From assembly GCF_019175385.1 (NCBI RefSeq), contig NC_083337.1, positions 45,856,938-45,920,937 on the forward strand: DNA of 64,000 bases, read 5' to 3'. Shown here in pieces: positions 3,001 to 64,000 of the stretch. This DNA comes from Lycium barbarum (lineage: Eukaryota; Streptophyta; Magnoliopsida; Solanales; Solanaceae). The position numbers were made by a program, and so were the translations under genes. The notes beneath the pieces were generated by a model. The model saw only the letters and a list, made by a program, of their open reading frames with translations. It was not told where the DNA came from and made no database searches. How positions within the stretch are numbered: the first letter of the stretch is position 1; every line of letters begins with the position of its first letter.

Positions 3001-3736
3001 TACCATATCGATACCGACCTCATAATTACTATCACTATCAACTCAACGGTTAACTTATTCCTCGAAGTCAGCTGTACTCACCAATTAGTCAAATCCTATC
3101 ATTACTATCGACACGACCTTTCAAGAATATAACGAACTTATATCTCATTCCCTTTTTATTTCTAGGAATATTTTTGGCATAGTTTCCTCTGTATTACTTA
3201 CTATCTCAAAACCTGCACGCAAGAAATACCAACAATGCCTCACAGGGCCAACATATATACGGATATATCATATCGTATCATAGCCACACAGGGCTCCCAA
3301 TTTCCAGTAAAAAGTATAAAGGTGTCGGAACTTACCTCACATATCGCACCTCGAGACGTACCTGATCCTTTAACGATCTGTCCTGTTATACCTCTCCATC
3401 TACCTTCTATTTTATCCTTCAACTTTACATTTCAACCATATTTCAATATTCTTACCTTATCCAACATGCCTCTTTCGCACCGTTACTTACCTGTGTACTT
3501 TGTAGCTTCCAATATCGTCAGTCGCTTCCTTCTGTCGATGTCGTTCTTCAGCTGAAATCAAAGGTTAGTATAAAAAATTTCATTTCCTATGGCTGGGCTC
3601 TATCGCACGATCTTAGATATGAAAGAAAGGTAACATCCTAAATGTCCTGTACCTTCCTATTTATAGATGTGGTGCACAACACACCGATAAACAAGACTCT
3701 ACTAGACACGGTCTGTAGACACTACGAGGATGAACT
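1..3736 (-). mobile_element. Element A interior (decayed LTR retrotransposon)
   Basis: This is the interior of an LTR retrotransposon read on the minus strand. The assignment rests on the primer site at 3,737-3,748 and the LTR to its right. The leader just inside the primer site (about 3,590-3,720) matches the leaders of elements D and F in the same position, including a stretch resembling ATCGTGCGATAGAGC in the sense strand. No gag or pol domain could be recognised in the rest. The plus strand is pyrimidine-rich, so the short open frames here look like chance frames. The element continues beyond the left edge, so its polypurine tract and 3' LTR are not seen. A possible splice acceptor (pyrimidine-rich then CAG, near 3,553) lies in the leader. 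It is probably a non-autonomous relative of elements D and F. Confidence 0.65.
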
Positions 3737-3748
3737 GCTCTGATACCA
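3737..3748 (-). promoter_or_regulatory. Primer binding site, initiator tRNA-Met type (element A)
   Basis: The minus strand reads TGGTATCAGAGC, the standard plant LTR-retrotransposon site complementary to the 3' end of initiator tRNA-Met, where minus-strand cDNA synthesis starts. It lies 4 bases from the LTR edge at 3,753, the usual spacing. Confidence 0.9.
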
Positions 3749-4070
3749 CTTTTGTCACGACCCAGCCCCGTAGGCCATGACTAGTGCCCAATCTGGACAC
3801 CCACATGTACCTGTCAAACATAATCGGACTGATACTATAGGTCCTTAATTAATCACATCATAATAACATACGCAAGCCGACGAGGCTGCCACGGTATATA
3901 TCATTATGCTACCAAACCGATAAGGTTGCCACTACATATCAGAGTATTACGCAATAACTATATAGACACAGCTGATCAAATCTGTATATAACCCACATAC
4001 ATGTCTACAGACCTCTAAGAGTATCAATAGTGAAATATGACGGGACAGGGCCCCGTCGTAACCCTGGACA

Positions 4071-29499: not shown

Positions 29500-29714
29500 T
29501 GTTATATCCCGCATTTCGCGCATTCGGATAATTCAAGCCAATTGTGGGAGGTTGAGAGCAAGCTCACATTTTAACCTTGATTAGCACACAAGTTGTTTAT
29601 AAGAGTTATGGGTGCGGAAATATAGAGGAAGGCTAAGGGCAAAATTCGAAACTTAAAAAAAAAATGGCCGGCCCGTTAATGGGCCAAGGCCCATGTGGGG
29701 GTTTAATTTATGGA

Positions 29715-29722
29715 CTATAAAG
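29715..29722 (+). promoter_or_regulatory. Possible TATA box of element D
   Basis: CTATAAAG lies about 215 bases into the 5' LTR. The 3' LTR has CTTAAAAG at the same place, so the 5' copy is the better candidate. Confidence 0.4.
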
Positions 29723-31863
29723 ATGACTAAGTCATCTTCAATTCATAGAAAGATCAAGAAGCTTGAAGAAAACAAAAGACCACCCCATTTTCGGCTATGA
29801 CCATGGAAATTTAGCTCCATGAAATCTTGCTCCAAAAATTATTTTCTTCATGTATTCCTACTAATTCAAGGGTCCTCTACAACGTGGTGTAGTTGTTTCG
29901 GAAGATAGGTCACTCGTTTCAACGTTTGCACACTTTACCTAAGTGGAGAAGTTGAGAAGAAAAGGTAAGATTTAATCCCTTTTTATATGTTATGAAGGGT
30001 TTGTTTAAGTTGTAGTAAATAGAAATGGATAGAATTCACGAAAATATGAAAGTTTGCATGGTGTGTGTGTGTGTATGTATGGGCCGTGTGTGTGTGTGTT
30101 GTGTGTAGGGAAGGTGAAACAATTTCTATGAAGTAATTTGATTGTTGTAGATGTGTATTCTATAATGGAAATGAGAATTTGATGATTTAAATTGATGTTG
30201 GAAATGTTATGGGTTGATTTGGAAGCCAATATGATGTTAGTGTCGTTTCTTTATTCATGAGTATAATGTTGTTAGAATGTGTGTTGTTGGGATAGTTCAT
30301 GAAATTGGAAGCAAGAAATGCATTAAAATTGTTTCTAGGGAAGTTGTGGAGTTTTGGGGTGAAGTGTGGTTTTGATGGGAAATGTTGGAATATTGTGTAG
30401 ATTGCTTAAAATATTCTTGAATCATGTTTGAACGATCTTGAATTAGTAAATGAATATGTAAGTATTGATATTGATTTGAATGTACGTAGTTGGATTGAAA
30501 GATGATGTACTATGTAGAAAAGAAGATTACTTATGTTAGAATGTATTTTGAATGGATGGTTGGTGTTGTTAGTGTGATCCTTGGCATTGTTGTTGATGTT
30601 TTGGCCGAGTTAGATTCTCGGGGATGTTGAATTTATAGGGGAGATGCTGCCCAAATTTCTGTAGACAACTGTTACTTAAGATTGAGTACCTAAATGCCTA
30701 TATGTTAATGTTGGGTAATTGTGACCTTTTGTATATTTTGAGGAGTTTGGGAATTGGGTTTGGATAAGCGTAAGGAGCGAATAAGGTATGTAAAGCCCTA
30801 CCTTTTCTTTCTTTGGCATGTCTTAGTCATAATAGGTTATGACATGAGTCTCGGGGGAAACTCTATTCCTAGAAATCCGAGCTTAGGTTTGGCCCTTAAA
30901 TATTCAATGTAATTGAATTATGAACCTATGTTTTGTTGGAAAATATGTTTGAACATTTTTACTTCTAAAAGAGTCTTGCGCCATAAAACGTCCATAACTT
31001 TCGCAAATAAATTCGGAATGCCCCGAGTCTTTTTGCAAACGAATCCATAAAACCTAAGGTTCGTAATTTATGTACACCACCTCGGCTTGACCCGAGGTGG
31101 GCCCACTGATCCCCAACCCTTTCCATATTGTTCTATTGGACTTATTTTCGAGCGACATTCAAAGGAAACTTTTGACTATTATTCCGATTATTAACAAAAA
31201 TTGTTTTAACTATCCTATGGAGACCTATGATATATTTTGACATGTACAAACGAACTCAGAAGTTTTGTTTTGACATAATCCGTTGTATCGTCTGAAAGGT
31301 ACGTGTTATGACTACCGTTTGACTTCTTTCCTAAATGACCTGTCGTCCGGATTATTATGTCGAGTCTTTGTAAATATTTTATGATGCATAAGTTTCTCAC
31401 TACTCTACTCGTGGATGCCTCAATAGTTCCTTCACTGAGCCCGGGCCAGGATATGTTATCACGCGTATTCCACTGCATTATTCGCCGTGCCTCGATGTGA
31501 GGGGGCAGGTATACATGTACATGGGTTGTGGAGTATGCTGTGCCATGTACACACATTCTGATATATGATGATATGATGTGATATGGCCATCTGATATGTT
31601 TGATATGTGCCCATTCTGATATGATATGATATGTTATGGAGCTATTCCCTACTCTGGAGTATGCTGTGTTGTGGCGCCAGTGACGGGGTGGCGACCACGT
31701 TTTGTCCACCGTGCCCCATAATGGGGCCGGATATGGCATATGTTCTGACATGCATTACCTATGTTTTATGAGTAAGCATTTTGATATTCCGGTTATTGCA
31801 CTTATTTTCTGTACCCCCTGTTCAGGTTATGATTCTGTTTATTGTATTTCATGCTTTACATAC

Positions 31864-31901
31864 TCAGTACCTATTTCGTACTGACCCCCTTTCTTCGGGG
31901 G
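31864..31901 (+). promoter_or_regulatory. Double hairpin in element D LTR
   Basis: TCAGTAC (31,864-31,870) pairs with GTACTGA (31,878-31,884), followed at once by CCCCC (31,885-31,889) pairing with GGGGG (31,897-31,901). The 3' LTR copy near 39,142-39,178 keeps the second stem, with one change (CATTAC) in the first. Confidence 0.6.
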
Positions 31902-32329
31902 CTGCGTTTCATGCCGCGCAGGTACACCCAGATGATCTGGAGTTATTATAGAGGATGTTCCAGTAGAGTTGGCAAGCTCCATTTGTTCCTGGGGTGCCAC
32001 TGAGTCAGAGTTTGTATGTGTGCTTCCTCTGGATTGATGTTAGAGACTTTGCAGACAGAGTCGTGGGTATAGTATGTCAGTTGTGCAAGCGGCTTCATCA
32101 GCCGATATGTCATTCTTTACTATATATTAAATTTTATATACGATGACAGATTCTGTTTGATTTGGATAACCTCGGAAAGAGTATTTTGAAGAATTTATTA
32201 TGTATTTTATCTTTATTTGATTTAAAGGTCTAATAAGATTTTATGTGTCCCGAAGGTCTGTGGGTTCGCTCGGCTCCGGATGTGGGGCCGGGTGCCCACA
32301 CACCGTAGCAGAATTAGGGTGTGACAAAG

Positions 32330-32341
32330 TGGTATCAGAGC
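32330..32341 (+). promoter_or_regulatory. Primer binding site of element D
   Basis: TGGTATCAGAGC, initiator tRNA-Met type, three bases after the 5' LTR. Confidence 0.93.
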
Positions 32342-32988: not shown

Positions 32989-33082
32989 GAATGCGATTAT
33001 ATCAACATTAAGGCATTGAATCCCCTCGAAGTTTCGAGGTTAAGCGTGCTAAGGTGGGAGGACGGGTGACCCCCCTGGGAAG
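32989..33082 (+). ncRNA. 5S rRNA-derived segment (element D)
   Basis: The segment begins GAATGCGATTATATCAACAT and ends GGGTGACCCCCCTGGGAAG. In order it matches plant 5S rRNA from nucleotide 1 to about 103: the GCGATCATACCAGCAC start, the ATCCC block, the A-box region TTAAGCGTGCT and the C-box GGGTGACC..CTGGGAAG. About 10-15 bases between the A-box and C-box are missing relative to 5S rRNA. It lies in the sense direction about 650 bases after the primer site. It is a remnant and not a functional rRNA gene. The homologous place in element F holds a better-preserved copy. Confidence 0.85.
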
Positions 33083-34573
33083 GATGCAAGAATTCTATAT
33101 ATTTAGACATAAGAGACAGATGAAAAGCTAGGATAGTTTGAAATGAAATTAGAGTATACGGGATGGTCAGAGACCATGAAAGGCCACACAGCACGCGACG
33201 GACTAGACTAGAAGAGAGACAGACAGTACGCCACCGCTCTGGAATTAGGATAGGCTTGAATAGCGTCTGGAGGTGATTTGTGGGCCAGTTGGTAATAATC
33301 ACATATGCATGTATAAATGCGTATGACATCCTATATGTGATCGTATTGGCGGACATGTGAGTCCCAGCAACCGACATTACGGTGTGGAAGGCATTAATTG
33401 AGTAAGGGCACCGAAGCTTAAATGACAACAGGAATAAATGGTGCAAGTGCTATAAGGCAAGCTGTTATTATTTTCACTACAGGCTAAGGCTGGAAAGGTT
33501 ATAATACAATGATATTTGAAAATGAAAGAGAGTGAGTAGATGGAAGACAAAGAGACCAAAATGTCAGAAAAAGGTAAGAAATCCCGGTAAGGGAAACCGA
33601 GAGAAATTACTGGCAAATTATGAGACTATGAAAATAAAAGTTTGAAGATAAGCACATGAAAAGGATAAGATGCGGTTATATGGAGCGAAAGAGGAATGTG
33701 TGAGGTTCGAGAACCAATTTCAAAAAAACAAAGTGGGACTAAAGAAATAGTGACTACGACAAGGAATGTGAAGTAAGAAAAAGAACGATAAAGCCTTGTG
33801 ACGATGACAAGGGATTTGGCATATAAAGGGACAATATGCAGTCGCGTTAATGTGATTACCTCGAATGTAAAAGTATTTGCCTGGAAGAATGATCTAGAAA
33901 TGAAACAGATTTGCGAGCCTAAAGTGAAAATTTTGTAAACTCCAGAGTCGATGCCACAAATGGCAAAATCAGAAAAGTATTCGAGGAGGAAAGAATCCAA
34001 GGAAGATTAAGGATGAAAGTAGGAAGAATACTTTGACGAATTAGCGATAAGGAACCCGGGTACGCACCAAATAAAGAACAAGTGTAATGGGATGACACTG
34101 TCGACTGGGAGATTAATGACATGGAATAATAATTCATGCGGAGTTCGACAAATTTGATTTTGGAGGAAATGGAATGAAGTACAAGGAACGAGCTAGGAAG
34201 ACTGCTCGATCATAGTGTTATAAGAATAATTAAAAGCTCAATGAGTAAAGATAGAGAGAGTGTAAACTGTATGGACTTTGTGTTTAGATAAAAAAGTAGG
34301 GGATGCTCAAAACGTATGGATACACAACTGTGGCACCGATGCATAATTAAGAAGACTTACGAGTATGTGAATTAGATAGGTGATAGGATTAATAGTGAGT
34401 GAAAAAGGACGGAAATATGGACAGAATGACGATATAGACAGGAATTAAAAGGGAAATTTAGGATAAGGAGTTTTGATATGTTATGTACGGAACTGGAAAT
34501 AAGGACGAGGAATGAGGTAATTATCGTAGCCGAAGGTACTCGAGGACTGTTCGCACATAAGGAGCCCCTTAAA

Positions 34574-36682: not shown

Positions 36683-39602
36683 TGTTATATCCCGCATTTC
36701 GCGCATTCGGATAATTCAAGCCAATTGTGGGAGGTTGAGAGCAAGCTCACATTTTAACCTTGATTAGCACACAAGTTGCTTATAAGAGTTATGGGTGCGG
36801 AAATATCGAGGAAGGCTAAGGGCAAAATTCGAAACTTAAAAAAAAATATTTTCATAAACTACAAAAATTGGTCATGAACTAATTGGGCTTGACATGAGAA
36901 AAAAAATAAAAAAAATAGTGGGCTTAGACTAAAGGCCAAGGGTGGCCGACCCCTTAATGGGCCAAGGCCCATGTGCGGGTTTAATTTATGGACTTAAAAG
37001 ATGACTAGTCATCTTCAATTCATAGAAAGATCAAGAAGCTTGAAGAAAACAAAAGACCACCCCATTTTCGGCGATGACCATGGAAATTTAGCTCCATGAA
37101 ATCTTGCTCCAAAAATTATTTTCTTCATGTATTCCTACTAATTCAAGGGTCCTCTACAACGTGGTGTAGTTGTTTCGGAAGATAGGTCACTCGTTTCAAC
37201 GTTTGCACACTTTAGCTAAGTGTAGAAGTTGAGAAGAAAAGGTAAGATTTAATCCCTTTTATATGTTATGAAGGGTTTGTTTAAGTTGTAGTAAATAGAA
37301 ATGGATAGAATTCATGAAAATATGAAAGTTTGCATGGTGGGTGTGTGTGTATGTATGGGCCGTGTGTGTGTGTGTTGCGTGTAGGGAAGGTGAAACAATT
37401 TCTATGAAGTAATTTGATTGTTGTAGATGTGTATTCTATAATGGAAATGAGAATTTGATGATTTAAATTGATGTTGGAAATGTTATGGGTTGATTTGGAA
37501 GCCAATATGATGTTAGTGTCGTTTCTTTATTCATGAGTATAATGTTGTTAGAATGTGTGTTATTGGGATAGTTCATGAAATTGGAAGCAAGAAATACATT
37601 AAAATTGTTTCTAGGGAAGTTGTGGAGTTTTGGGGTGAAGTGTGGTTTTGATGGGAAATGTTGGAATATTGTGTAGATTGCTTAAAATATTCTTGAATCA
37701 TGTTTGAACGATCTTGAATTAGTAAATGAATATGTAAGTATTGATATTGATTTGAATGTACGTAGTTGGATTGAAAGATGATGTACTATGTAGAAAAGAA
37801 GATTACTTATGTTAGAATGTATTTTGAATGGATGGTTGGTGTTGTTAGTGTGATCCTTCGCATTGTTGTTGATGTTTTGGCCGAGTTAGATTCTCGGGGA
37901 TGTTGAATTTATAGGGGAGATGCTGCCCAAATTTCTGTAGACAAGTGTTACTTAAGATTGAGTACCTAATGCCTATATGTTAATGTTGGGTAATTGTGAC
38001 CTTTTGTAGATTTTGAGGAGTTTGGGAATTGGGTTTGGATAAGCGTAAGGAGCGAATAAGGTATGTAAAGCCCTACCTTTTCTTTCTTTGGCATGTCTTA
38101 GTCAAAATAGGTTATGACACGAGTCTCGGGGGAAACTCTATTCCTAGAAATCCGAGCTTAGGTTTGGCCCTTAAACATTCAATGTAATTGAATTATGAAC
38201 CTATGTTTTGTTGGAAAATATGTTTGAACATTTTTACTTCTAAAAGAGTCTTGCGCCATAAAACGTCCATAACTTTCACAAATAAATTCGGAATGCCCCG
38301 AGTCTTTTTGCAAACGAATCCTTAAAGCCTAAGGTTCGTAATTTATGTACGCCACCTCGGCTTGACCCGAGGTGGGCCCACTCATCCCCAACCCTTTCCA
38401 TATTGTTCTATTGGACTTATTTTCGAGCGACATTCAAAGGAAACTTTTGACTATTATTCCGATTATTAACAAAAATTGTTTTAACTATCCTATAGAGACC
38501 TATGATATATTTTGACATGTACAAACGAACTCAGAAGTTTTGTTTTGACATAATCTGTTGTATCGTCTGAAAGATACGTGTTATGACTACCGTTTGACTT
38601 CTTTCCTAAATGACCTGTCGTCCGGATTATTCTGTCGAGTCTTTGTAAATATTTTATGATGCATAAGTTTCTCACTACTCTACTCGTGGATGCCTCAATA
38701 CTTCATTCACTGAGCCCGGGCCAGGATATGTTATCACGCGTATTCCACTGCATTGTTCGCCGTGCCTCGATGTGAGGGGTCAGGTATACATGTACATGGG
38801 TTGTGGAGTATGTTTTGCTATGTACACACATTCTGATATATGATGATATGATATGATATGGCCATCTGATATGTTTGATATGTGCACATTCTGATATGAT
38901 ATGATATGTTACAGAGCTATTCCCTACTCTGGAATATGCTGTGTTGTGGCGCCAGTGACGGGGTGGCGACCACGTTTTATCCACCGTGCCTCATAATGGG
39001 GCCGGATATGGCATATGTTCTGACATGCATTACCTATGTTTTATGAGTAAGCATTTTGATATTCCGGTTATTGCACTTATTTTCTGTACCCCCTGTTCAG
39101 GTTATGATTCTGTTTATTGTATTTCATGCTTTACATACTCATTACCTATTCCGTACTGACCCCCTTTCTTCGGGGGCTGCGTTTCATGCCGCGCAGGTAC
39201 ACCCAGATGATGTGGAGTTATTATAGAGGATGTTCCAGCAGAGTTGGCAAGCTCCATTTGTTCCTGGGGTGCCACTGAGTCAGAGTTTGTATGTGTGCTT
39301 CCTCTGGATTGATGTTAGAGACTTTGCAGACAGAGTCGTGGGTATAGTATGTCAGTTGTGCAAGCGGCTTCATCAGCCGATATGTCATTCTGTATTATAT
39401 ATTAAATTTTATATACGATGACAGATTCTGTTTGATTTGGATAACCTCGGAAAGAGTATTTTGAAGAATTTATTATGTATTTTATCTTTATTTGATTTAA
39501 AGGTCTAATAAGATTTTATGTGTCCTGAAGGTCTGTGGGTTCGCTCGGCTTCGGATGTGGGGCCGGGTGCCCATCACACCCTAGCGGAATTAGGGTGTGA
39601 CA
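36683..39602 (+). mobile_element. 3' LTR of element D
   Basis: It starts TGTTATATCCCGC and ends GGGTGTGACA, followed by the duplication CCACT. It is nearly identical to the 5' LTR, with an extra block of about 93 bases at roughly 36,850-36,945. Its GCTGCC-type motif is at 37,914-37,940. The minus-strand frames in it are shadows also present in the 5' LTR. Confidence 0.95.
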
Positions 39603-45690: not shown

Positions 45691-46738
45691 CCTTGAGATA
45701 TTGAGCATAATTAGTGATGTAGAAGCATGCATTTCATGCACTCTCATTCTTCATGATATATTGTTGGGATACTGGTGATACTTGATAAAACACTGTGGTG
45801 AGCTGTGCTCAGTTTTTACTTAAGTGTTGTGAGAGGCTGATATCCGATGTTAGTTCCGGAATCATTGATTGAGTGAGTGCATGGACTCCGAGGGTCCCCC
45901 GGAGTGGTGCCAGTGAGAACCCCTCGTGGGTAAAGCTCCGGGGTCCCGTCTGTCCCTTGGGCAAAGATCTAGGATGGGTAGTACTCAGACTTCCCGAGTC
46001 ATACTGGATTGTGCTACCGAGATGTCAATATTTCCGATTGGAGTACATGTGTACACAACATTTGTATGGCATTGCATTGCATCTATACATTAGTATATTG
46101 CATTGCACCATGGCTTACTTTGAGATGTTTTGGTGTTGTACTTGTGATGTTAGATTCAGACTTGATATATTTAAACTTGGCATATTTGGGATTAGATATT
46201 CTACTTAGGCGATGATGTGTACTTGGATTCGATTACATTTGATTTATACTTGTTGGTTTATCTGCCTATATGCTTTCTTATCTGAATTGTGTTAGCTATG
46301 CTTAGTCGGACAATGATGCCTATCAGTACTGTTGTTTTGTACTAACCCGCACTTGCTGCATTCCTTTATGGATGCATAGTATCAGGTTGGATCTGTTTCC
46401 GTTACATATGGCTGATAGTCGCTTCAGCATTATCTTCGAGTTTTCAGGGTGTGCATGGTCGTTCGCTGCCTTGAAGACTTCTCTATCATTATGTCCAATT
46501 TCTATTCAGAGACATAGACACTTTATATATGGACCGAACTATCTCACGACGTTTTGAACCCAGCTCACGTACCGTTTTAATTGGCGAATAGCCCAACCCT
46601 TGGAACATACTATACCCTCAGGTGGCAAAGAGCCAACATCGAGGTGCTTATTATTCCATACTTGTATTATTTCCCTTTTAGATGCTCTTGTATTACTCAG
46701 ATTAGACCTGGGGGTGTTATTATAATTCCGCACTATGC

Positions 46739-48659: not shown

Positions 48660-48933
48660 GGTATATTTTTGTTCGTCATAGAGCAACATCGGTGTTATTT
48701 GATCCTGGATCCACCTATTCGTATGTATCTGCATTTCATGCTGTTGGTTGGGATATACCTTGTGATAACATAGATATACCTGTTCATGTGTCGAATCCGG
48801 TCAGAGATTCTGTTATTCTTGATCGAGTTTATCGATCTTGTTTGGTTACTTTTATAGGTTACGACACTTGGGTAGATTTGATGATTCTCGATATGGTTGA
48901 CTTTGATATTATATTGGGGATGTCCTGGCTTTC
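48660..48933 (+). pseudogene. Element E aspartic protease, cut by element F
   Basis: The open stretch contains SVLFDPGSTYSYVS with the catalytic aspartate in the family's DPGS context, then VSNPVRDSVILDRVYRSCLV, and ends FDIILGMSWLS, the last conserved retropepsin block before RT. Unlike the copy at 41,910-42,131 the active-site region is preserved. Element F begins right after this block at 48,934, so RT and the rest of pol are displaced beyond the window's right edge. Confidence 0.92.
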
Positions 48934-49050
48934 TGTCACGACCCAATCCGATGGGCCGTAACAAGTCCCCGACCACTACTGGCCCAGTAGTCTTATGCTT
49001 GCATTTACTTCTCATTGACACTCCTGGGCCCGTACACAATCTGTTACTTA

Positions 49051-49440
49051 CACTACAAAAAAAACTGGTTTTAGCGACGAACGAAATCCGCTGCTAAACC
49101 ACCCAAATCCGTCGTTAAAGCCGTTTAGCGACAGATTAGCGATGGAATTTCGTCTGTCGCTAAAACGCTCGTAGCTAAGCTTTTAGCGACAAAATTTTGG
49201 CATCGTCACTACATTTAGCAATAGATTAGTGACAAAGAATTCCGTCACTAACCTTAGCGACAAAAATTTTCGTAGCTAATACATGTAAAATCCGTTGCGC
49301 ATTTGGTTGTTCATTTCATCATCGGGATATATTAGCTACGGAATTTCCATCAGTATTCCGTCGCAATTTATATAATATTATTTCTAAAATACTATATTTA
49401 TTACATATTTAGCTACGACAAAAAACGTCGCTATTTTTTG
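49051..49440. repeat. Left terminal and subterminal repeats of CACTA-1
   Basis: The 24-base terminal repeat is followed by about ten copies, in both orientations, of GCGACGGA-type motifs (for example TTTAGCGACA, CCGTCGTTAA, CGTCGCTATT). Confidence 0.9.
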
Positions 49441-51754
49441 CTTATATATTCTTATATATTATCCGAAATCATCGTAGAACATATTAAATGAAAGTAGCAA
49501 TTCAACAAACATTACAAGAACCTGATTTCATATAAATAATTTGAAGATTAACAATCAGATTCAAAATTACATAAATCCCAAAGCATCAACAACTTTCATA
49601 ATTGTTGTTTAACTAATAGAAATAGAGCCTGAAAGACAAAGCTAACTAATGTGGTGTTGGAGAGTGATGTTCATCGGGATCGAAAGTAGGACCCAAGGAC
49701 ATAAACGCTTACCTTCATCTGTCCTCCCACAGTCTCGTAATATATCCAAGTTGCAACGTCCATCTACTCCTATTGAGATCACTATTACTCTAACAATTCA
49801 TGAGCTATATCCTGTAAATAAAAGAAAATGAAAACCTTTTAAAAAAAAATTGGACATTCAATTTATCCAACAAAAAAGATATGAATATGTCATCTATAAG
49901 GGTCAATAAGATCACATAATATTTTATTGCCCAAAAAAAAAAAGATCACAGAATATTTACTTCGTGCACAATTCGAAATCGATCACCATGTACAAAAAGA
50001 TTTTCCACCATAGCTATGTATATAAATATGCAAATGTATCCGAGTTCGTCGGACCGAACAAAATTTTGTATAAGCAATTAATTTGGTATCATAAAATTTG
50101 AGTCTACTACTGATTATTTTTTGTCACAGTACTCCTCTATCTATGGCCATGCATTATGTCAAGAAACACACTTTAGAGTTTAGATTGGAAGATTTAAAAA
50201 AAAAAGAACAAGCACTAGAAACCCAAAGGACCAAACAAAAAAACTTTTTACTAGTCTTTACTCTTCTTGGCGATGAAGTCTTACAGCGTAAGTACATAAC
50301 TTAATATATTTAGAGAAAATCACACGCTACTGAGCATGGAAAATGTAATACATTATTCAATCTTTCGTTTAATGATCTCAAAGCAAATAAAGCTGGTTCA
50401 ACAAAAATATGAAGAACAAAGCATTAGAATTATTCCCCAAAGTTATAGCGGTGGACTGTGGTAGTTAATTAAACAAGCATTAGAAGTTCGTGAAAAGCAA
50501 TGTGGACATCGCATTCAGCAAAGTGTCAAAAGTCTAAGTAAGGCTAGAAGCTTTGACCCACCCTTACATTTTCACGCCAACAAGTACATGCTCAAGCAAA
50601 ATGTACTGCTTCTTTTATTCTCAAATTATAAGAGACTTTGAAATATATGTCATACTTGTCATTTGAAGCACCTAATTACTTCAGATTCCATTTTAAACAG
50701 AAATAATGAAATTAATACATTGTATCTTCTAAAATACATCATCCTAACTAAAGTCTAAAGGACAGCCTGTCTGTTACAGAAGAGACTTTGTTTCGCTGTT
50801 TTAATCTGTGGACCTAGTGTTGGAGCTCTAAATTGTCGAAGCAGAACTCATTCAACACTATCAAAAAGTTAAATATGTATTTGATTAAATGTAAAGTTGA
50901 GATGCATTACCTGAACTGTTAAGCAATGAAATTTCAAAATCATACTTCAATAGCAGCCATCAACATAAAAGTAACTCTAGAACACCCCCACAAAGCTCAT
51001 TGTTTCCAACAATTGAAACCTCGCTGCCAATAGCAAATCAATTTTTAGCATCAGTTCAAATTTTTTAACAAAGACACACACATATACTTGACTATGTTTG
51101 GTGAGAAAGATCTTTCAGAACAATAGGACAATAAACCAACAAACATAAGAAGCTACCGATAGTGACAGAGCAGCCCGTGTGAGTCCAAGCGGCTTCTTCA
51201 CTCCTACCACCACCACGTGTTTTTGAAATTATTTCCGACTTTTAAACACACTTAGGATCTTCTCAAAGACATGTTCACTTGTCAACTTCCTTTTCTGTGA
51301 ACTAAATGCAGCAAATCTCTCCCACGTGCAGTATTTTCTATCTGAAAATTATATTAAGTTCTTAAATAGTTCTTAAATGAGGTCTTGTGCAAATAATAGG
51401 ACTTTAGTTCAAGAAACAAAATGACATTACCATATCTTCTTCTATCTTCTTGCTTGTTGTTTATCAAAATATGAATATATTCGTTTACTTAGAACATATG
51501 CCTTAGTTTCTAGTCTCTAGACCATGAGAATGCTCAAACATAGAAATTATAGATCGCATAAATCAATGCCAAAAGATGTGCAATATATCTAATCTAGACT
51601 TCAAAGTGAAAGAGGAGACTAATTAACTTGACTATGAGCACACAACTGCCAAGAAAACAACATGGTCAAGTGTAACTAAATGGCATATTCCTGCTGTTTC
51701 ATCACTGATTTAGTCACAACATATATCACAGTGCAGGTAAAAAGATCCAAATAA

Positions 51755-51840
51755 TGCTGCGTACAATAGACCCTTGTGGTCCGGCCCTTCCCCGGACCCC
51801 GCGCATAGCGGGAGCTTAGTGCACCGGGCTGCCCTGTTTT
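51755..51840 (+). mobile_element. SINE 3' fragment (TS/SolS type)
   Basis: It contains GCTGCGTACAATAGACCC, TGTGGTCCGGCCCTTCCCCG, CGCGCATAGCGGGAGCTTAG and TGCACCGGGCTGCCC, the highly conserved 3' body of tRNA-derived SINEs of Solanaceae. The tRNA-like head is missing and the T-tail is reduced to TTTT. It lies inside CACTA-1 and moves with it. Confidence 0.88.
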
Positions 51841-53162
51841 ACACCAGTCGCTACACTATCATATGGTACGACTTCAGACACTCACAGGTGTTTAGCTAAA
51901 ACAATCCCAAACTTGCACATGATTTAGTTCACAAAACATAAAAACAATCTTGATTCCAGGGATTGATATTTTCAGTAGACCCATCATTCAAACAGTTGTG
52001 GGCGTAAAATCATAGCGATTTAATATGTAACTGTAAATGTATTGCACCATCCCAAATTCAATGGGAAATATAGCTAACAGGTGCACAGTGATTCAAACAA
52101 TACTCAGACAAGTAAGAAGGATAAGAATTGCACTACATAACATAGACCACAAAGGATAAGTTCAGCAATTTAGCTCTAGGGAAAACTGAGAAGGATCTGA
52201 GAGAGAAAAAATACAGAGAAGAGAGGGGAAAGGATCTTACCTGGTAGTCTTCTGTGATCTGAGAAGGAGAGGGATGGCCAGAGCTGGACAGGGGTGTGGA
52301 GTGATTTATTCTTCTTCTAGTTTGTGTGATTCAGTAGCAGAATTCCAATGAAGCACTAAATAATGCAATTTTCAAGTTCTAACCAACAACAAATCAATGT
52401 CTAATGCCAAAAGTTTACAGCAATAACTCAAATTTATCCTCGAAGCTTGCAGCTACTTTCCAATTTTAATAAACTTAAGATCTTATTGTCCTTCAAGGGT
52501 TCTAGCTAGAGTAATATTTTGTATATTAAGAAGTTCTAATTTGTTAAAGTACATCATACCTCTGATATCTAATGTTTGAACCACTCACTGAAAGATTAAT
52601 AACTTCTGTCACCACTCATGCAATTTCGCCCAGAACATGCAAAATAGGAGAAATTTATCCACATCGGTTATGAAACTAGAATTAATACCCCCTCAGCCAT
52701 CCATACTCTTGTACATCCAACCACGCTCTAGATTATCCATATTTCTATTTGGTGCTGAAATAAACAATAAAACTAGAGTTCTTTTCTTTTAATAAGTAAG
52801 TCTTCTAAAGCGAAGAACAAGTTGAGTTTAAAAAGAAGACTTTAAAGTTTCAAATCACACAATGCCTAACTGGAATCTCTACCAGTTAAACTAGATACAA
52901 ATAAGAAATGAAGAAATTCAAAAGGCAAGCTAAAACTATATATCTGAATGACTCAAAGTAAACTATGGGGCAGTTAAATTACACTTACTATATGAATGAA
53001 ATTCCTCGAGCCAGCTTCTACATTTCTAATATTCTTCTAAGAATATACCAATCAATAATACAAAAAACTACTACCTGCAGGTCAAAAGACTAGAATCACA
53101 AACCCTGACATGAACTACTAACGACATTGTTGAGTCAAAGAACAACAAATGTAAATAATGAG

Positions 53163-53600
53163 GAACAAAAATTCAGTAGTTAGTGCAGAATAAAACTGAC
53201 TTTCGGCTCTGAGTCGGCAATGCTTGTATCAACCATAATGTCGTTCCAATTAGAAGCCAGAGCATCTTCATCATTGATTACAAGGTCGGCCCATTCCTGC
53301 CAATCACTTTGTTTATTGCTACAAGCTACCTGGCTATTCTGGACAGGGAATGGATCAAGGAAATTAGGCAATGGATCTATACACCAGGGTTCATTGTTTT
53401 CAATCAAATATTGGCTTGATGTTGTAGATTGAAGAACTCCCGAATGAGGTGGTGTCGTGATGTTAGTTCCAGCAGTAGCTTCAAGAAAGGGAACTTCTGG
53501 GACTCAAGATTAGGTTCCTCCTCCATTGAAGGATTAGACTCCTCCTCCATTGAAGGTTCACAATGATGAGACGACTCAGGTTCAGTATTTATCAAAAAGC
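53163..53600 (-). pseudogene. Captured host-gene tail in CACTA-1, transcription-factor-like
   Basis: Two overlapping frames joined by one frameshift near 53,495 give an acidic tail. The first part has two PSMEEE repeats. The second includes an SGVLQSTTSSQYLIENNEPW stretch and SDWQEWADLVINDEDALASN followed by WNDIMVDT, ending in EPKVSFILH and a stop at 53,180. The acidic, tryptophan-spaced end resembles activation regions of plant R2R3-MYB proteins, but no DNA-binding domain is present nearby, so the family is a guess. CACTA elements are known to pick up gene fragments. It could also be a remnant of a CACTA-encoded protein. Confidence 0.4.
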
Positions 53601-54499
53601 GAATCAATACAAAACTGGTTTTGACACGAGTCAGAAACTTAACAGACACCACGAATGGTATTGGAGTTGTTTACTTTCTCTTCACTAATCACATAGCTTT
53701 TTTACCTAAAAACAAAACCAATAGGCGACACACACACAAAAGGTATACTTCACACAATCGCAATTTTTCCCCAAAATTTAGGTTCTTTAACAACACCTAA
53801 GTCAAAGCATAAACATTAAACATAATAGAAAAAGAAATGAAGAAACAGATATGGAAGAGCAAAAGATCAATCATTAACAGAAGAACAAAAATGGAAGAAC
53901 CCCAAATGAATAAACACTAAAGAATGAATCAAAAAGCTAAAAAAATGGTAATACTCATATATTATTGAGGAAATTAGGCAGATGAATAAAGACACAAACT
54001 TTCCTTCATAAACATGCTTAATAAGCAAAAATCAAGGCTTTTAATCAAAGAAAGAACATTCCTTTTACTCATCAGCAAAGCAAACAAAGATCCAACAAGC
54101 TAAAAAAAATTTCCCGAAAAACAAGCTAAATAGTTAAAAGAAGATTAAAAAAAAACAGAAGCTTCATGCATTACTAAAGAATAAAAATGGAAGAAACCCA
54201 GATGAATACAACACTAAACAATGAATCAAAAATGCTACTAATACTTACAGATTATTGAAGAAATTAATTAGCCAGATGAAAAGAACATGTTTTTATGTTC
54301 TTGAAAACCAAGAGAAACCCTATCTAACAGAAAAGGGAAGAGAAAAGAGAAGCAAAGACAAACCTAAGTAGAGGCGGAGAGAGCAAGACAAGTTTCAGTG
54401 GTTTTGTGTGTTTGAAGAATGTTCTAGGGTTTTGAAGTTTTAGTGTGTTTATTAGAGACCATTTTGTTTTATTTCTTTGATAAATAAAATTTTATTTTT

Positions 54500-54905
54500 T
54501 TTGCTGACAATTTTACCAACGGATTGGTTCCGTCGCTAAGATTAACATTAAATTTTACCATTTTTTAAGTTAACAACGGAAATATCCGTAGCAATTACTA
54601 TTAAAATATGGTGATACATACATATTATCTAACGACAAACATAATCCGTCGCTAAGTTGTAATAATTTTTGCCGCCAACAATTTGTCGTAAATTTTGTAC
54701 CTAAAATAAAGGCGCTTAATTTTAGCGCCTAAATATAGCGACGGATATTAAATTCTGTCGCTAGTCCGTCGTTAGTTTAGATATCATTTCGGTTTTCCTT
54801 TTTTTGGCGACAAATTTGTAATTTCGTAGGTAATTCGTCGTTACATAGCGACGGCATAAATTTTGTTGCTAAAATCCGTCCCTAAAACCAGTTTTTTTTG
54901 TAGTG
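54500..54905. repeat. Right subterminal and terminal repeats of CACTA-1
   Basis: Repeated CCGTCGCTAA/TAGCGACGGA motifs are followed by the terminal repeat ending GTTTTTTTTGTAGTG, the exact complement of the left end for 24 bases. Confidence 0.9.
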
Positions 54906-56857
54906 TTAACTGTACTGCCTCCCGAACAATCAACATAAGAGACACTGTGCCGGGAACTCACGACCAACACACACATATAGTCATAAATACTGGGAGTAAC
55001 AGCGCAAGCCGATTCGACCGCTACATATATGCTATACAACAAAAATGAGGGTCAACGAGGTTGCATAACATCATGGCTACATATACCTGTCTACAGACCT
55101 CTACGGAGTACGAACTGTAGAAAGGACAAGACAAGGCCCTGCCATACCCATATATGTACATAACAGAACAACATACCAAAAGGACTGTAGCTCCGGATCA
55201 ATGGAGCGTACTGACTGCTGCTAATGGGAGGTCCTACTGCGGTGGATCGTCTGGCTGGCTATCTGATCCTGCGGGCATGAACGCTACTGCGCCCACAAGA
55301 AAGGAAGTCAGTACGAGTAATGTACCGAGTATGTAAGGCATGAATAATAACATAGTAAAGGATGTAAAGCATGAATAATAACAGAATGGAAATATAGAGC
55401 ATATCGTAAGATAAAAGAGTAACCTGTACATATGAGTGCCACTTAGGGCGGATGCCATGCATGCTTAGATTTCTTTGAAAAACATTTCTTGTTCATATAT
55501 ACAGAAAATATGCCGAGAAACGTCAGCCCGATCCATTTACCCACATATGTCCCGTGTCCGGGCATCTCGCGTCCGGGATGATATCATATTACACCAACTG
55601 ATCAGGTGGTCATGCGTCTATAGCGCCACTCCCTTTTTCCAATATTCCCCATATAAATATACATATATCATATAAGCAGCATGCAGGAGAGCCCAAAGAA
55701 AACTATATCTCTATCGGAGTGACGTAAGGTCGGTAACCTCAGATTACATTGTGGAATAATCATGATCGTCATGTCTCACTTTGAAGGAACAATTATTATA
55801 AGGTGAAACTTTCAATGAACAATAACATCAAGAGAAAACGTAGAATAAGATCGTAAATCTCACAGGGTGTCAATTCATATGCTTTGAAGTCTTTAGAAAA
55901 TACAGCCATTATCAAAAATTAAAGTTGGGGGTCAAGAAATAGTTCAACATTCACATAGAAACCAAGAGCTTGGAACATTTGATCATCAAATCATCATTAA
56001 CATGATAGAAGATGTTCCCATCTTTGGTATCACCCTCATCGTTGTGAAAACATGTTCATCGTTGTTATCATAGAGCTTACGGAGTCATAAATCACTGATT
56101 TAGAAAATACGGACATTTGGAAAACATTTATGAATTATTAGGAAATGAATTATGCCTTGGAGTCACAAACATCTAACTTTTGAAAACAAGGAAGATATGG
56201 AACATTTATGAAGTCATAACATCGGAATCATGCCTTTGAAAGAAAGGGACGAGCCTTAACATACCTGTTCAACCTCCTATTAGCTACGCTTATGTGTCCG
56301 AGCTCACAAGTCTACATTTAAGAGGATTTACACTAACGTTAGCCTCTTTATTGCACACTTGTTCCAAGTTTCTAATCAAACTATTCTATATTCTGCCGAA
56401 AATCGAGCAGCATCTCCCCTGTTTATATGCCTAGTCCGAATTCTCAATTCAACAACCAACAACAACAATAACAATACCAAAACCAATAGCATCATTTTCA
56501 ACTCCAAAGTATTCCATAGAACAGCCCATATGGTGTTTGTCCCATATTTCCACCAACAGAACTAATTTACAACAATTTAACAACTCCTTCTCCGTAATTA
56601 AATCAAGATTAACGTTAATAGCAAGAGATTCATGCCTTTATCTCGATAATAATGCTATATATTCACTCCTCCACCTTGAGCTTAAGCCACAATTCCTCAA
56701 TACACAATTTTGAAATCGCAACTATACACCGTCTGGACCGGGATTTGGGAATTATACCTGCTTTTGGGCTAAAAAGTTGATGATGAAAAGTTTGGGAATT
56801 TTGTGGAAGGTTTGGGGAGGTTTGGGTGTGTTTGGGGTGAAAAATAAGGGGGCCTCC

Positions 56858-56867
56858 CCTTTTATAG
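56858..56867 (-). promoter_or_regulatory. TATA box of element F LTR
   Basis: The minus strand reads CTATAAAAGG, about 610 bases into the LTR, just downstream of the GGTCCAGG/CCTGGACC inverted repeat. Confidence 0.6.
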
Positions 56868-57474
56868 AATGGTCCAGGTTCTGCCTGGACCGACCTAAAA
56901 TTAACTCAGCGCGATCGCTCCCCCTTTGGGCGCGTTCGCGCAACCTTAATTGTTTTGACTGCGCGTTCGTTCAGTAAAAAGGTCATAACTCTTGATCCCG
57001 ATATCGTGTGAAGGACAACGACCTATTGTTGGAAAGCGAATTCAATTATATTCAACTTTTATTCTTGGCGCGTTTCCAAATTCCAAACTTATAATATCGT
57101 TTTGTCCCCTTCAATTCAGATCATCCGAAAACGTTTCTTTAAATCATCTCTTTGGAGGGCTTGTGCCCATATTTGGCTTAAGGGTCTTTCTTAGGACTAG
57201 CTCAACTTTCCATGTACTACTCATATATCTCTTCATATGTCCTTTATAAAACTCCAGCATGTGGGCCCCACTTAGCTTACAACAACGAGGGCTTTTCGTC
57301 AGGTGACATATGAACCAATTCACCCCATATGATCTCCACATATCATATATATACCATTATTACACTATTATAATACAACTTTTCTCCTTAATCCTCGCAT
57401 AACTTTACTCTTCCTTTGGCCAATACTAAGATGTTTACGACCTTGGTAGAGCAAAAATTTTCCGGGGTGTAACA

Positions 57475-57508
57475 TCCTTCCCCCTTTTGAAACATTCGTC
57501 CTCGAATG
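57475..57508 (-). promoter_or_regulatory. Polypurine tract and upstream box of element F
   Basis: The minus strand reads CATTCGAGGACGAATG, then TTTCAAAAGGGGGAAGGA immediately before the 3' LTR, as in element D. Confidence 0.92.
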
Positions 57509-58399: not shown

Positions 58400-60100
58400 A
58401 GCTTCGATTTCCTTGTACCGGCGGTCGCTTCACCCGTTATTATTCCTTATTGGCTTTCTGATGTGGCCTTTTTACAATTGTAGTTGGGCATAGCTTCACA
58501 TTGACGGTTCATGTAATTCCATAGCACATGCTCTCATGTTCAGTATAATTAGCGATCCATGATGTGTTTTCTAATATCCGGTGAACTCTTTTATTTCCAT
58601 GCACAAGAGCAACATTCTTCCTTTCCTCGGAAAATTACCCAACTACCAATCTTTGTTGCTTTTGTTACAATCTTCGTTGTCATCCCAAATGTCCTTTGAG
58701 TTTGTCACTCTCTCTATCACCCTTGGTGAATTTAACTTGGAGATGTTTCTTGCTCTTTTTATTACCCTTTAAGGCATATCACTGCATACTTAGGTACGGC
58801 ATAATTTTACCCGATGCGAGGGATTCAAATCATGGTCTAGAAATATCGTAGTTTATATTGGCGTGAAGTGCTCACTTGAGTTGTTTTCCATACTTCCTTC
58901 CTATGTCTGCCTCATGGCATCACTTATTTTCGATTTGTGTCTACTCCTTTTTTATGCCTTCTTGATATGTCGATACGCCCCGAGATTGGCCTTGAGCCGA
59001 TAAATTTCTTCTTTGGAGTTTAAGAACATCGTAATTCCTTTCAAGTCTAATATAATATGTCTTTCCCCCCTTATTAAGGAGGTCCTTATATGCCAATAGC
59101 CTTCGAGTACTCATCGTCTTCGATAATTATCTGCCGCCCTTCAAGACCTTCTTATGGCCAGGGTTCTGTCATCGTATGGTCTGACTTATCTATCTCCTTG
59201 CTAATCACACTCTTGTATCCAATCGGAATACTTATAAGGGTTAGATCTAATTCTGATGCCTTATTTTCCGTCTTTTCACACCTCTGTCTTTTATGACTAG
59301 CGATTTTTCGGACACGCAAGTTAATGGGGGCATCGAGATTTACCACGTCATTTATGAAGTCTTCGATTATACCTTACTCCTCGTCTCTCTTCCTGACTTT
59401 GCTTATAACATATCTAAAACTTCTTACCCTGAGTTCTTCTTCCATTTATGTCTATATCATCATTCTTTTGTCAATATTTCCATACCCTTCCATCCATTAC
59501 TAGTCCTTTCTCCTGTTTAACTCACTTATTCATAATTCTTCTTAACTACGCGTTTGTGTTGCAGCTGTGCATCCAAGTTTTCAGAGTGTCCTGCTACTTC
59601 TTACTCTTAGCACAGAATTCTCATAATGTACTCTCTCTCTCCATCCTCGTTCATCGAGCCTTCATCCGTCTTTCTGATACCACGGCCAGGTTGTCTTCCA
59701 TGCACATTCCTTACATTACACTCTATTTCCTTTATAATTGAATCTCTCGGTTTTTACAGGAATTCTTGCCTCATGTCATTAATTTTCTAATCATATGTGT
59801 CGCCCCATCATCCTCGTTCGTATCTCGGTGATTGATCTGTTTCCTACTGCCAACTCGTTAAAATATCCTTCTTACTCCAATGGTTAAGATTTTCCCTGTT
59901 ATTTTACTCCTAAATGCTCTCCTCTTCCTTCGATCAGCCCATTAGTATATCTTCCCTATTTTCACCCTTAATCCTCTTTAGGTTCCTTTCTTCTCGAGCA
60001 CCCTTCTCCTCTTTGTTATTTATAGTATCGGCTCGGAAGTTCATGAAATATTCCTTTGAACGTGCAAATCCGTTCTATTCTTAAGTCACCTTTTAGGAAA

Positions 60101-60182
60101 GCTTCTCCATGTCTGAGGCAACTATGTTAATATGACTACACGCTTCTCCATGTCTGAGGCAACTATGTTAATATGACTACAC
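60101..60182. repeat. Perfect 41-base tandem duplication
   Basis: The unit starting GCTTCTCCATGTCTGAGGCA occurs twice head to tail (60,101-60,141 and 60,142-60,182) with no differences seen, so the duplication is recent. Confidence 0.9.
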
Positions 60183-60793: not shown

Positions 60794-61003
60794 TAACACC
60801 TCGCTTACAAAGTGTTTCCAAATGCTACTCAAACTCACCCTAGTTTTGGAGTTGTGATGCACCTTCTTCCTCTTCACCGGTCTAATCCGCCTCATCCTTC
60901 GTGATCTCTTAAAGTTTCTAACCACTCCGCATACTCCAAATTCCCTTAGGCTACTCTAGCTTCTTATCTATCTCTTATGTCTGGATTATAGGACTTTTAG
61001 TAC

Positions 61004-61106
61004 ACTTCCCAGGGGGTCACCCATCCTAACATTTCTCTCACCCCAGCATGCTTAACCTTAAAACTCTGATGAAATCCGGTGCGTTAATGCTGGTATGATC
61101 GAATCC
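61004..61106 (-). ncRNA. 5S rRNA-derived segment (element F)
   Basis: Read on the minus strand it begins GGATTCGATCATACCAGCAT, continues through GCACCGGATTTCATCAGAG, AGGTTAAGCATGCTGGGG and AGGATGGGTGACCCCC, and ends TGGGAAGT. This is plant 5S rRNA from its first nucleotide to about position 103 of roughly 120, with a small number of substitutions and one short gap. The internal control region is readable: the A-box (AAGCATGCTGGGG for AAGCGTGCTTGGG) and the C-box GGATGGGTGACC. The last 15-17 nucleotides, which close helix I, are absent, so it is not a functional rRNA gene. It lies in the element's sense direction about 1.04 kb after the primer site. The flanks on both sides align with element D around its own 5S-like segment. 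Confidence 0.93.
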
Positions 61107-61447: not shown

Positions 61448-61940
61448 TCATATACCTGTAGCCGATCGGTCTCTAGTTTGATCTTGTGGGCTATAAGGTG
61501 AAGTGTGCTCCTCATCATTGTCTACCCACCATCTGCTCGTCTGGCCTTCATCATCTCTCTCATCTGAGTCCGAGGGATATAGATAACCGGGTAACTCCTG
61601 GTTTACCGACGACCAGGATAGAGGGATAGAGTAATCCATAATACTCACTGAGGAGGCTGGTCTGATGTAGTGCTCTACCATAGGAACAGCTGGTACGGCC
61701 TCAGGAATCTCCTCCTCCGGTGTCCCAGACGAATACTTGGACGGATTTGTATCATAACTGCCCTCAGGGGGGTCCTCCTCCCTGGAAGTCAAACTCTGGA
61801 GGAATCATCGCTGGGTCTTCCGAAGGATCAGTCTCAATGGAATAACTGAGGTTCCTCCGACTCAGTCTTGGAGCATGGGGTCCTGGATATACTTTAGGGG
61901 CCTTATTAGCACCCCCACTATCTGAAGCTGATCTCTTCAT
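61448..61940 (-). pseudogene. Unrecognised frame in the gag position of element F
   Basis: A first frame starts at ATG (61,938-61,940), MKRSASDSGGANKAP, and runs 58 codons to a stop at 61,764-61,766. A second frame overlapping it continues to 61,448 (through EEDPPEGSYDTNPS, an SVSIMDYSIPLSW stretch, DSDERDDEGQTSRWW). One frameshift near 61,764-61,795 would join them into about 160 residues. The product is acidic and rich in Ser, Pro, Glu and Asp with no domain I recognise. It lies 20 or so bases after a CTGCAG/GTAAGT junction. It may be a divergent gag start or a family-specific accessory frame. Confidence 0.45.
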
Positions 61941-62145: not shown

Positions 62146-62157
62146 GCTCTGATACCA
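62146..62157 (-). promoter_or_regulatory. Primer binding site of element F
   Basis: The minus strand reads TGGTATCAGAGC, four bases inside the LTR edge at 62,162. Confidence 0.92.
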
Positions 62158-62161
62158 CTTT

Positions 62162-64000
62162 TGTTACGACCCAAGCCGATGGGCCGTAACAAGTGCCCGA
62201 CCACTACTGGCCAAGCACTACTATGCTTGCATTTACTTCTAATTGACTATCCTGGGCCCGTACATAATCAGTAACTTAACTATACTACCTCCCGAACAAT
62301 CAACATAAGAGACACTGTGCCGAGAACTCACGACCAACACACACATATAGTCATAAATACTGGGAGTAACAGCGCAAGCCGATTCGGCCGCTATATATAT
62401 GCTATACAACAAAATGAGAGTCAACGAGGTTGCATAACATCATGGCTACATATACCTGTCTACAGACCTCTACGGAGTACGAACTGTAGAAAGGACAAGA
62501 CAAGGCCCTGCCATATCCATATATGTACATAACAGAATAGCATACCAAAAAGGGCTGCTGCTGATGGGAGGTCCTACTGCGGTGGATCGTCTGGCTGGCT
62601 ATCTGATCCTGCGGGCATGAACGCCGCGCCCACAAGAAAGGAAGTCAGTACGAGTAATGTACTGAGTATGTAAGGCATGAATAATAACATAGTAAAGGAT
62701 GTAAAGCATGAATAATAACAGAATGGAAATATAGAGCATATCGTAAGATAAAAGAGTAACCTGTACATATGAGTGCCTCTTAGGGCGGATGCCATGCATG
62801 CTTAGCTTTCTTTGAAAAAAATTTCTTGTTCATATATACAGAAAATATGCCGAGAAACGTCGGCCCGATCCATTTAACCACATATGTCCCGTGTCCGGGC
62901 TTCCCGCGTCTGGGATGATATCATATTACACCAACTGATCAGGTGGTCATGCGTCTATAGCGCCACTCCCTTTTTCCCATATTCCCCATATACATATACA
63001 TATATCATATAAGCAGCATGCAGGAGAGCCCAAAGAAAAGTATATCTCTATCAGAGTGACGTAAGGTCGGTAACCTCCGATTACATTATGGAATAATCAT
63101 GATCGTCATGTCTTACCTTGAAGGAACAATTATTATAAGGTGAAACTATCAATGAAGAATAACATCAAGAGAAAACATAGAACAAGATCGAAAATCTCAT
63201 AGGGTGTCAATTCACATGCTTTGAAGTCTGTAGAAAATAGAGCCATTATAAAAGATTAAAGTTGGGGGTCAAGAAATAGTTCAACATTCTCAAATTCACA
63301 TAGAAACAAAGAGCTTGGAAAATTTGATCATCAAATCATCATTAACATGATAGAAGATGTTCCCATCTTTGGTATCACCCTCATTGTTGTGAAAACATGT
63401 TCATCGTTGTTATCATAAGAGCTTACGGAGTCATAAATCTCTGATTTAGAAAATACGGACATTTGGAAAACATTTATGAATTATTAGGAAAGGAATTATG
63501 CCTTGGAGTCATAAACATCTAACTTTTGAAAACAAGGAATATATGGAACATTTATGAAGTCATAACATCGGAATCATGCCTTTGAAAGAAAGGGACGAGC
63601 CTTAACATACCCGTTCAACCTCCTATTAACTACGCTTATGCGGACGAGCTCACAAGTCTACATTTAAGAGGATTTACACTAATGTTAGCCTCTTTATTGC
63701 ACACTTGTTCCAAGTTTCAAATCAAACTATTCTATATTCTGCTGAAAATCGGGCAGCATCTCCCCTGTTTATATGCCTAGCCGGATTCTCAATTCAACAA
63801 CCAACCAACAACAATAATAATACCCACACCAACAACATCATTTCCAACTCCAAAGTATTCCATAGAATAGCCCATATGGTGTTTGTCCCATATTTCCACC
63901 AACAGAACTAATTTACAATAATTTAAGAACTCCTTCCCCGTAATTAAACCAAGACTAACGTTAGTAGCAAGAGATTAATACCTTTATCTCGATAATAATG
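62162..64000 (-). mobile_element. 5' LTR of element F, truncated by the window
   Basis: It starts TGTTACGACCC on the plus strand next to the primer site and matches the left LTR in order through the hairpin region (about 62,636-62,672) and the GCTGCC-type motif (63,739-63,765). By comparison about 0.85 kb of it lies beyond the right edge. It shows the empty target site of CACTA-1 (TAACTTAACTATAC near 62,273). Confidence 0.9.

Follow-up and report, generated by a model that had tools for sequence, protein, structure and literature searches.

What is a piece of a 5S rRNA gene doing in the middle of a large LTR retrotransposon, and is it still in use there or simply carried along? The question is raised by an element, here called F, of Lycium barbarum. 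The window, that is, the whole 64,000-nucleotide stretch of DNA analysed here, covers NC_083337.1 45,856,938-45,920,937, and copies of the element were searched for within the same 1.67-Gb genome. The A-box and the C-box of a 5S gene are read by TFIIIA and TFIIIC; in 5S numbering, which is used throughout, we take these boxes to be nt 50-64 and nt 80-97.

A 5S-derived segment in the body of a non-coding LTR element

The initial annotation, made from the letters of the window, described about 103 bases collinear with 5S rRNA from nt 1, lying in sense inside the body of an LTR element and containing a readable A-box and C-box, and this description holds in each of its parts. The segment of F was compared with L002, a true 5S gene of this genome that reaches 115.3 bits in the Rfam model, where the genome's best 47 matches reach 107-116 bits; the two are identical at 86 of 103 positions over nt 1-103 without a gap. 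The covariance model search proposed at that stage yields an RF00001 match on the minus strand, at 60,990-61,106. Its score of 43.6 bits exceeds the gathering score of 38, and over the window as a whole E is 9.6e-06. The segment is on the minus strand like F itself and starts about 1,040 nt past the primer-binding site (PBS), and both boxes are present, that for the C-box without a single difference from genomic 5S (Table 1).

Element F has a 5' LTR of 2,665 bp and an interior of about 4.7 kb. A nested insertion (about 49,056-54,905, some 5.85 kb) divides its 3' LTR, the main part of which gives a K2P divergence of 0.061. Within the interior, a stretch of about 40 bases is directly duplicated (about 60,100-60,182, plus strand), as spotted by eye. 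The window also holds a related element, E, with an interior of about 4.4 kb and a 5S segment beginning 648 nt past its PBS. E and F are 85% identical in the leader, and a number of blocks in their interiors match at about 67-71%. The LTRs of E are 98.05% identical (K2P 0.0198), and this low divergence of about 0.02 indicates that E moved recently. A third element (3,596-3,789, minus strand) has the same PBS, at 3,748, and its leader resembles the one in F at about 80%. No 5S segment is present in the part that the window covers, where the best 5S alignment score, 12, lies within the shuffle range. Elsewhere in the window, a bacterial-type LSU rRNA fragment (46,536-46,645, minus strand; 80.1 bits, model positions 2523-2632) presumably represents plastid- or mitochondrion-derived DNA.

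Table 1. Coordinates of elements F and E and of their 5S-derived segments in the window
Feature	Position	Strand	Remarks
5' LTR of F	62,162-64,000 in the window, to 64,826 in the genome	minus	ends 826 nt past the window
Primer-binding site of F, TGGTATCAGAGC	62,146-62,157	minus	
5S rRNA-derived segment of F	61,004-61,106	minus	Rfam RF00001 and alignment to genomic 5S; nt 1 at 61,106
A-box region of F	61,043-61,057	minus	5S nt 50-64; well-kept core nt 51-62
C-box region of F	61,010-61,027	minus	5S nt 80-97; identical to genomic 5S
Best-kept 20-base window	61,006-61,025	minus	5S nt 82-101
Sole sense ORF of at least 80 aa in F interior	61,448-61,804	minus	118 aa; no Pfam match
Purine tract of F	57,475-57,488	minus	adjoins 3' LTR start at 57,474
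3' LTR of F, main part	54,906-57,474	minus	
3' LTR of F, last part	48,934-49,055	minus	past the nested insertion
Target duplication of F, GAAAG	48,929-48,933 (one copy)		on both sides of F
5' LTR of E	29,500-32,326	plus	2,827 bp
Primer-binding site of E, TGGTATCAGAGC	32,330-32,341	plus	
5S rRNA-derived segment of E	32,989-33,083	plus	nt 71-79 deleted (9 nt); one extra C in C-run
3' LTR of E	36,683-39,602	plus	target duplication CCACT flanks the element on both sides

The interior of E has no sense ORF of 80 aa, and because the only one of at least this length in F has 118 aa and no Pfam match, F is regarded as a large non-autonomous element. No pol was detected among the ORFs read in these two copies, so the label "Ty3/gypsy-type" first attached to F is not established. 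What both elements do possess is the structural outfit of a LARD, namely two LTRs, a PBS, a purine tract and a target-site duplication, together with a long interior that has no gag-pol coding capacity in the ORFs read. TATA motifs are found within the LTRs (TATAAAAG at 615 in F, TATAAAG at 217 in E), and the genomic RNA is thus presumably transcribed by pol II.

Distribution of the segment across the genome

DNA searches with F-type and E-type queries of 401 and 351 bases around the segment returned 5,724 and 4,482 first-look candidates, of which the best 40 per query were scored; these stand at 88-100% for the F-type and 86-100% for the E-type query. The segment is present in all 60 loci fetched by similarity around it (30 F-type, 30 E-type), and its 5S part begins at nt 1, or at nt 2-6 in some loci, and ends in local alignments at nt 101-103. 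An unbiased set was obtained with a query placed 404-854 nt downstream of the segment, which listed 41 matches; the 20 new copies fetched from these carry the segment without exception, with scores of 47.5-73, where 1,000 shuffles reach 16.5 at most. An element-specific derived form of nt 49-70, a variant of the A-box, has 4,245 exact matches in the genome (reversed control, 0) and none in viral contigs, and among the matches listed, all on C1, the three free positions of this pattern hold eight different strings. The segment is thus carried by the family, in F-type, E-type and unbiased copies alike, and the 60/60 and 20/20 loci together with the 4,245 pattern matches leave no room for a lone copy without relatives.

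Twenty further copies (L073-L092) were chosen by the A-box pattern, which does not cover the C-box. Their nt 82-101 are free of substitutions and deletions in 16 of 20 (maximum 2), and their nt 1-49 differ from 5S at 17.1 positions on average; with the limits set at nt 80-97, eight of the 20 are difference-free, one divergent variant being changed at nt 81. The Rfam gathering score for 5S is reached by 8 of 20 loci scanned (7/10 F-type, 1/10 E-type). Three equal-score element matches at C10:64049123, 64057180 and 64065236 lie 8,056-8,057 bases apart, and this looks like a tandem array.

Origin of the segment

Seven fixed differences from genomic 5S (nt 20, 34, 43, 44, 46, 50 and 67) are identical in F and E, their segments have the same ends and the flanks can be aligned, all of which places the segment before the split of the two types. 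C to T is the commonest change, accounting for 248 of 503 substitution cells in F and 264 of 555 in E. As far as it can be read from sequence, the 5S origin, the position and the shared derived changes are best read as a single old event, in which a non-coding LTR retrotransposon took up 5S, in sense, in the leader region of its body. From the sense orientation, the start at or next to nt 1 and the internal 3' break at nt 103 we infer capture by template switching, in which reverse transcriptase would have jumped from element RNA to 5S RNA, reached the 5' end and jumped back; the lineage that took up the piece would later have diversified into several variants, thousands of copies strong.

Either a 5S gene or a Cassandra LTR had been named as the source in the initial annotation; derivation from 5S as such is supported. 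Cassandra is a plant TRIM with a 5S promoter in its LTRs, whose A-box and C-box are kept while the linkers vary (PMC10853983), and so a Cassandra LTR, in place of 5S RNA or a 5S gene directly, could have brought the same promoter boxes into a plant element. The homology, however, runs from nt 1 or next to it up to nt 103, whereas the core common to Cassandras is about 70 bp, albeit more than 100 nt in Malus (PMC10853983), and a Cassandra source is disfavoured on these grounds. A 23-nt Cassandra-like motif matched 21 places, of which the two examined (L113, L114) both belong to the present group, and no Cassandra was identified in this genome by this motif in those 2 of 21 matches. As an account of the origin alone, a Cassandra source is considered very improbable.

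Constraint on the promoter boxes

Copies decay after insertion, and the lineages that are still transposing show what must be kept. This rationale underlies a ratio test in which changes were mapped by parsimony onto a tree built from the flanks only, internal changes being those of lineages and terminal ones mostly post-insertion; its flanks are short, its parsimony is crude and indels are not counted. It was run on 80 copies selected independently of the A-box pattern and on a larger set of 100, all of them from the best-scoring matches. In the 80 copies the internal to terminal counts are 279:487 in the flanks and 0:37 in nt 80-97 (p=1.2e-7). The A-box core, nt 51-62, has 2:19 (p=0.01), nt 1-49 drift like the flanks with 75:146 (p=0.5), and the remaining stretches give 10:9 (nt 63-65), 1:8 (nt 66-72, p=0.17) and 12:15 (nt 73-79). 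At nt 63, which is T in 5S and A, G or C in the element variants, six internal changes fall in a tree of 80 copies, although the neighbouring nt 51-62 are kept. The same two stretches, nt 80-97 and nt 51-62, yield 0:30 (p=0.00025) and 1:18 (p=0.054) in 50 F-type copies, and 0:23 (p=5.6e-5) and 3:10 (p=0.39) in E plus the 20 unbiased copies.

With 100 copies the flanks have 483:739 and nt 1-49 have 103:203 (p=0.07). Around the A-box, nt 50-60 give 2:17 (p=0.009), the whole box, nt 50-64, 13:26 (p=0.51) and nt 65-79 24:39 (p=0.9). Around the C-box the counts are 2:14 for nt 80-89 (p=0.036), 2:42 for nt 80-97 (p=2.6e-7), 7:47 for nt 80-103 (p=4e-5) and, with limits chosen after the first ratio test, 0:42 for nt 82-101 (p=1.2e-9). 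Fixed substitutions, 24 events in all, avoid both nt 80-97 (0/24, P=0.008) and nt 80-103 (0/24, P=0.0013); nt 50-64 and 80-97 together take 4 of the 24 (P=0.07), and nt 51-62 plus 80-102, limits set after the data had been seen, give P=2e-5.

A scan of 60 copies (1,678 columns over about 1.9 kb, 1,659 windows of 20) ranks nt 82-101 first, with 0 internal changes where the median is 28, and nt 43-62 second with 6, a rank shared by an upstream window at -164 to -124. By these ranks no stretch of the aligned interior is better kept than the C-box, and the A-box is among the next. In 2,000 column shuffles the minimum was never below 6 internal changes. A further upstream window, -62 to -42 relative to 5S nt 1, also has few, 7 per 20 columns.

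These patterns have to be weighed against the possibility that the segment is an inert passenger, a 5S capture copied along with the element whose apparent conservation comes from low mutability, from the choice of copies or from the tree method. Terminal rates in nt 80-97 and nt 51-62 are indeed below those of the flanks, and nt 80-97 contain no CpG; against non-CpG flanks the p values are 0.004 for nt 80-97 and 0.105 for nt 51-62. Smaller tests were also weak: the first ratio test (80 copies, nt 80-103) gave p=0.07 against the flanks and 0.17 against nt 1-49, turning strong once 20 copies chosen outside the segment were added, and when fixed changes were set against private ones, p was 0.38 for the 20 unbiased copies and 0.003 for E. 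The terminal changes are, however, the ratio test's own control for mutation, and with this control nt 80-97 stand out in three subsets (p=1.2e-7, 5.6e-5 and 0.00025); likewise, 75 non-overlapping windows of similarly low terminal count show at least 6 internal changes each, with a median of 13. An inert passenger is thus regarded as an improbable account, at about one chance in six.

The comparison of copies shows that the C-box is kept in transposing lineages beyond the level of the flanks, and the A-box core (nt 51-62) is probably kept as well, if not in every subset. The 5S piece is not simply decaying, and the far smaller change in its promoter motifs than in the rest suggests that the elements still use them. 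Length changes are nonetheless part of the picture: E-type copies are without nt 71-79, part of the intermediate element, 22 of 30 of them are longer by one or two bases after nt 90, and with strict motifs a C-run of six is seen in 17 of the 30 E copies, one of five in 17 of the 30 F copies.

DNA motifs or RNA structure

That the segment might mimic 5S rRNA, as had been suggested initially, is not supported, and an RNA mimic was rejected as a candidate. With nt 104-119 absent, 13 of the 34 model pairs of 5S are missing, and the remaining pairing is 0.867 against 0.890 in a same-base column-swap null (P=0.76). Raw pair counts looked well kept before this control, C-to-T changes making U-G pairs from C-G; two-sided pair changes reach P=0.07 to 0.17 against the same-base null, and a retained 5S secondary structure, taken as a mark of membership, is lacking. 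P5SM, an exonized element in the TFIIIA gene of plants, likewise places 5S-derived sequence inside a longer transcript of pol II. P5SM, however, acts in splicing through its RNA structure, whereas pairing in F and E is not above chance.

A narrower role in RNA would have the helix IV hairpin with its GUGA loop, together with nt 51-62, act in the element RNA, in packaging, in dimerisation or in the binding of TFIIIA or ribosomal protein L5. Such a role would agree with the sense orientation, with the intactness of pairs 85-92 and 86-91 (95/99 and 93/96 cells), with two helix III pairs showing two-sided changes, pair 31-46 in 44 copies and pair 34-41 in 42, and with the varying length of the C-run, tolerable for a hairpin. 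Yet the overall pairing does not exceed the null, nt 104-119 are gone, nt 73-79 on the side of loop E vary or are deleted, and the kept stretches coincide with the promoter boxes. We consider function at the RNA level, these named roles included, unlikely, at somewhat under one chance in five; the pairing results point to DNA motifs instead.

Of the parts of a type 1 (5S) promoter, the A-box core and the C-box are kept, and nt 71-79 of the intermediate element are deleted in E-type copies. No TATA-like box near -28 was found in the 24 of 60 upstream stretches inspected, and the first run of four T past the segment comes at a median of 368 nt in F and 192 nt in E (28/30 within 182-194). No complete transcription unit of the 5S type is evident. 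The loss of nt 71-79 in E, the poor upstream and terminator signals and the subsets with a weak A-box count against a docking function. On the other side, the maintenance of the C-box and, less firmly, of the A-box core in transposing lineages fits recruitment of TFIIIA and TFIIIC, and we lean towards the captured 5S being kept as a DNA-level recruitment module for these factors, from which pol III initiation would be possible.

Comparison with known systems

Cassandra, like F and E, is a non-autonomous LTR element with a 5S-derived stretch and kept boxes (PMC10853983). There, however, the 5S stretch is part of short LTRs and the element stays below about 1 kb, whereas in F and E nt 1-103 lie in the interior of elements of about 10 kb with LTRs of 2.7-2.9 kb. 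The segments are situated 1,040 (F) and 648 nt (E) inside the PBS and not in the LTRs, and neither miniature size nor short LTRs are found (2,665 bp in F; 2,827 bp for the 5' LTR of E). The conserved 5S boxes are common ground, strongly for the C-box and moderately for the A-box core, with the intermediate element partly lost in E. Since the tests of LTR position and of size both fail, F and E are not Cassandra by anatomy; by function, their module may work like the Cassandra 5S module.

Ajax, a nemertean TRIM with a 5S-derived LTR, and the TRIMp3 group are likewise non-autonomous LTR elements with a captured small-RNA-gene promoter, but differ from F and E in being miniature, in having the 5S part in the LTR and in occurring in animals (PMC10886601). 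LARDs share LTRs, PBS, purine tract and a long interior without detected protein genes, but are described without a 5S promoter module in the available text of PMC7215508. SINE3 also brings a 5S-derived pol III promoter into a mobile element (PMC10886601); it depends on non-LTR elements and has 5S at its head, whereas the piece in F and E is in mid-body of an LTR element. In the literature found, 5S promoters of LTR elements occur only in LTRs, those of Cassandra (PMC10853983, PMC7215508) and Ajax (PMC10886601), and a search of open-access full text yielded no description of a 5S promoter in the interior of a large LTR element.

A proposed docking module and its significance

Under the recruitment reading, the lineages that continue to transpose would keep the C-box and, less firmly, the A-box core, and the rest of the piece would drift. 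The boxes would bind TFIIIA and, through it, TFIIIC, and might thereby mark or open a pol III-type site in mid-element, with a body transcript perhaps starting at the boxes beside the ordinary LTR promoter. Such a transcript could not be the element's genome, because it would be without the 5' LTR and the PBS. As a tentative proposal, to which we give slightly less than an even chance, a large group of non-autonomous LTR elements keeps, under selection, a mid-body docking module for TFIIIA and TFIIIC derived from captured 5S, using the pol III machinery in cis for an internal transcript or against silencing, and the LTR promoter for genomic RNA.

In Cassandra and Ajax 5S sits in the LTRs of miniature elements, and its benefit is read, in the papers found, as that of a promoter for genomic RNA. 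The module of F and E is placed where it cannot fill this role alone, yet its C-box is conserved in a large and partly young family. If the module works, binding of TFIIIA and TFIIIC would aid a retrotransposon in some other way, through chromatin opening, a boundary function or an internal non-coding transcript. A single genome offers more than 4,000 natural copies, which vary in the intactness of their boxes and make the idea testable, and counts of dispersed "5S" in such plants may include segments of these elements. If true, this would be a second way of using a 5S promoter, with no need for a position in the LTR.
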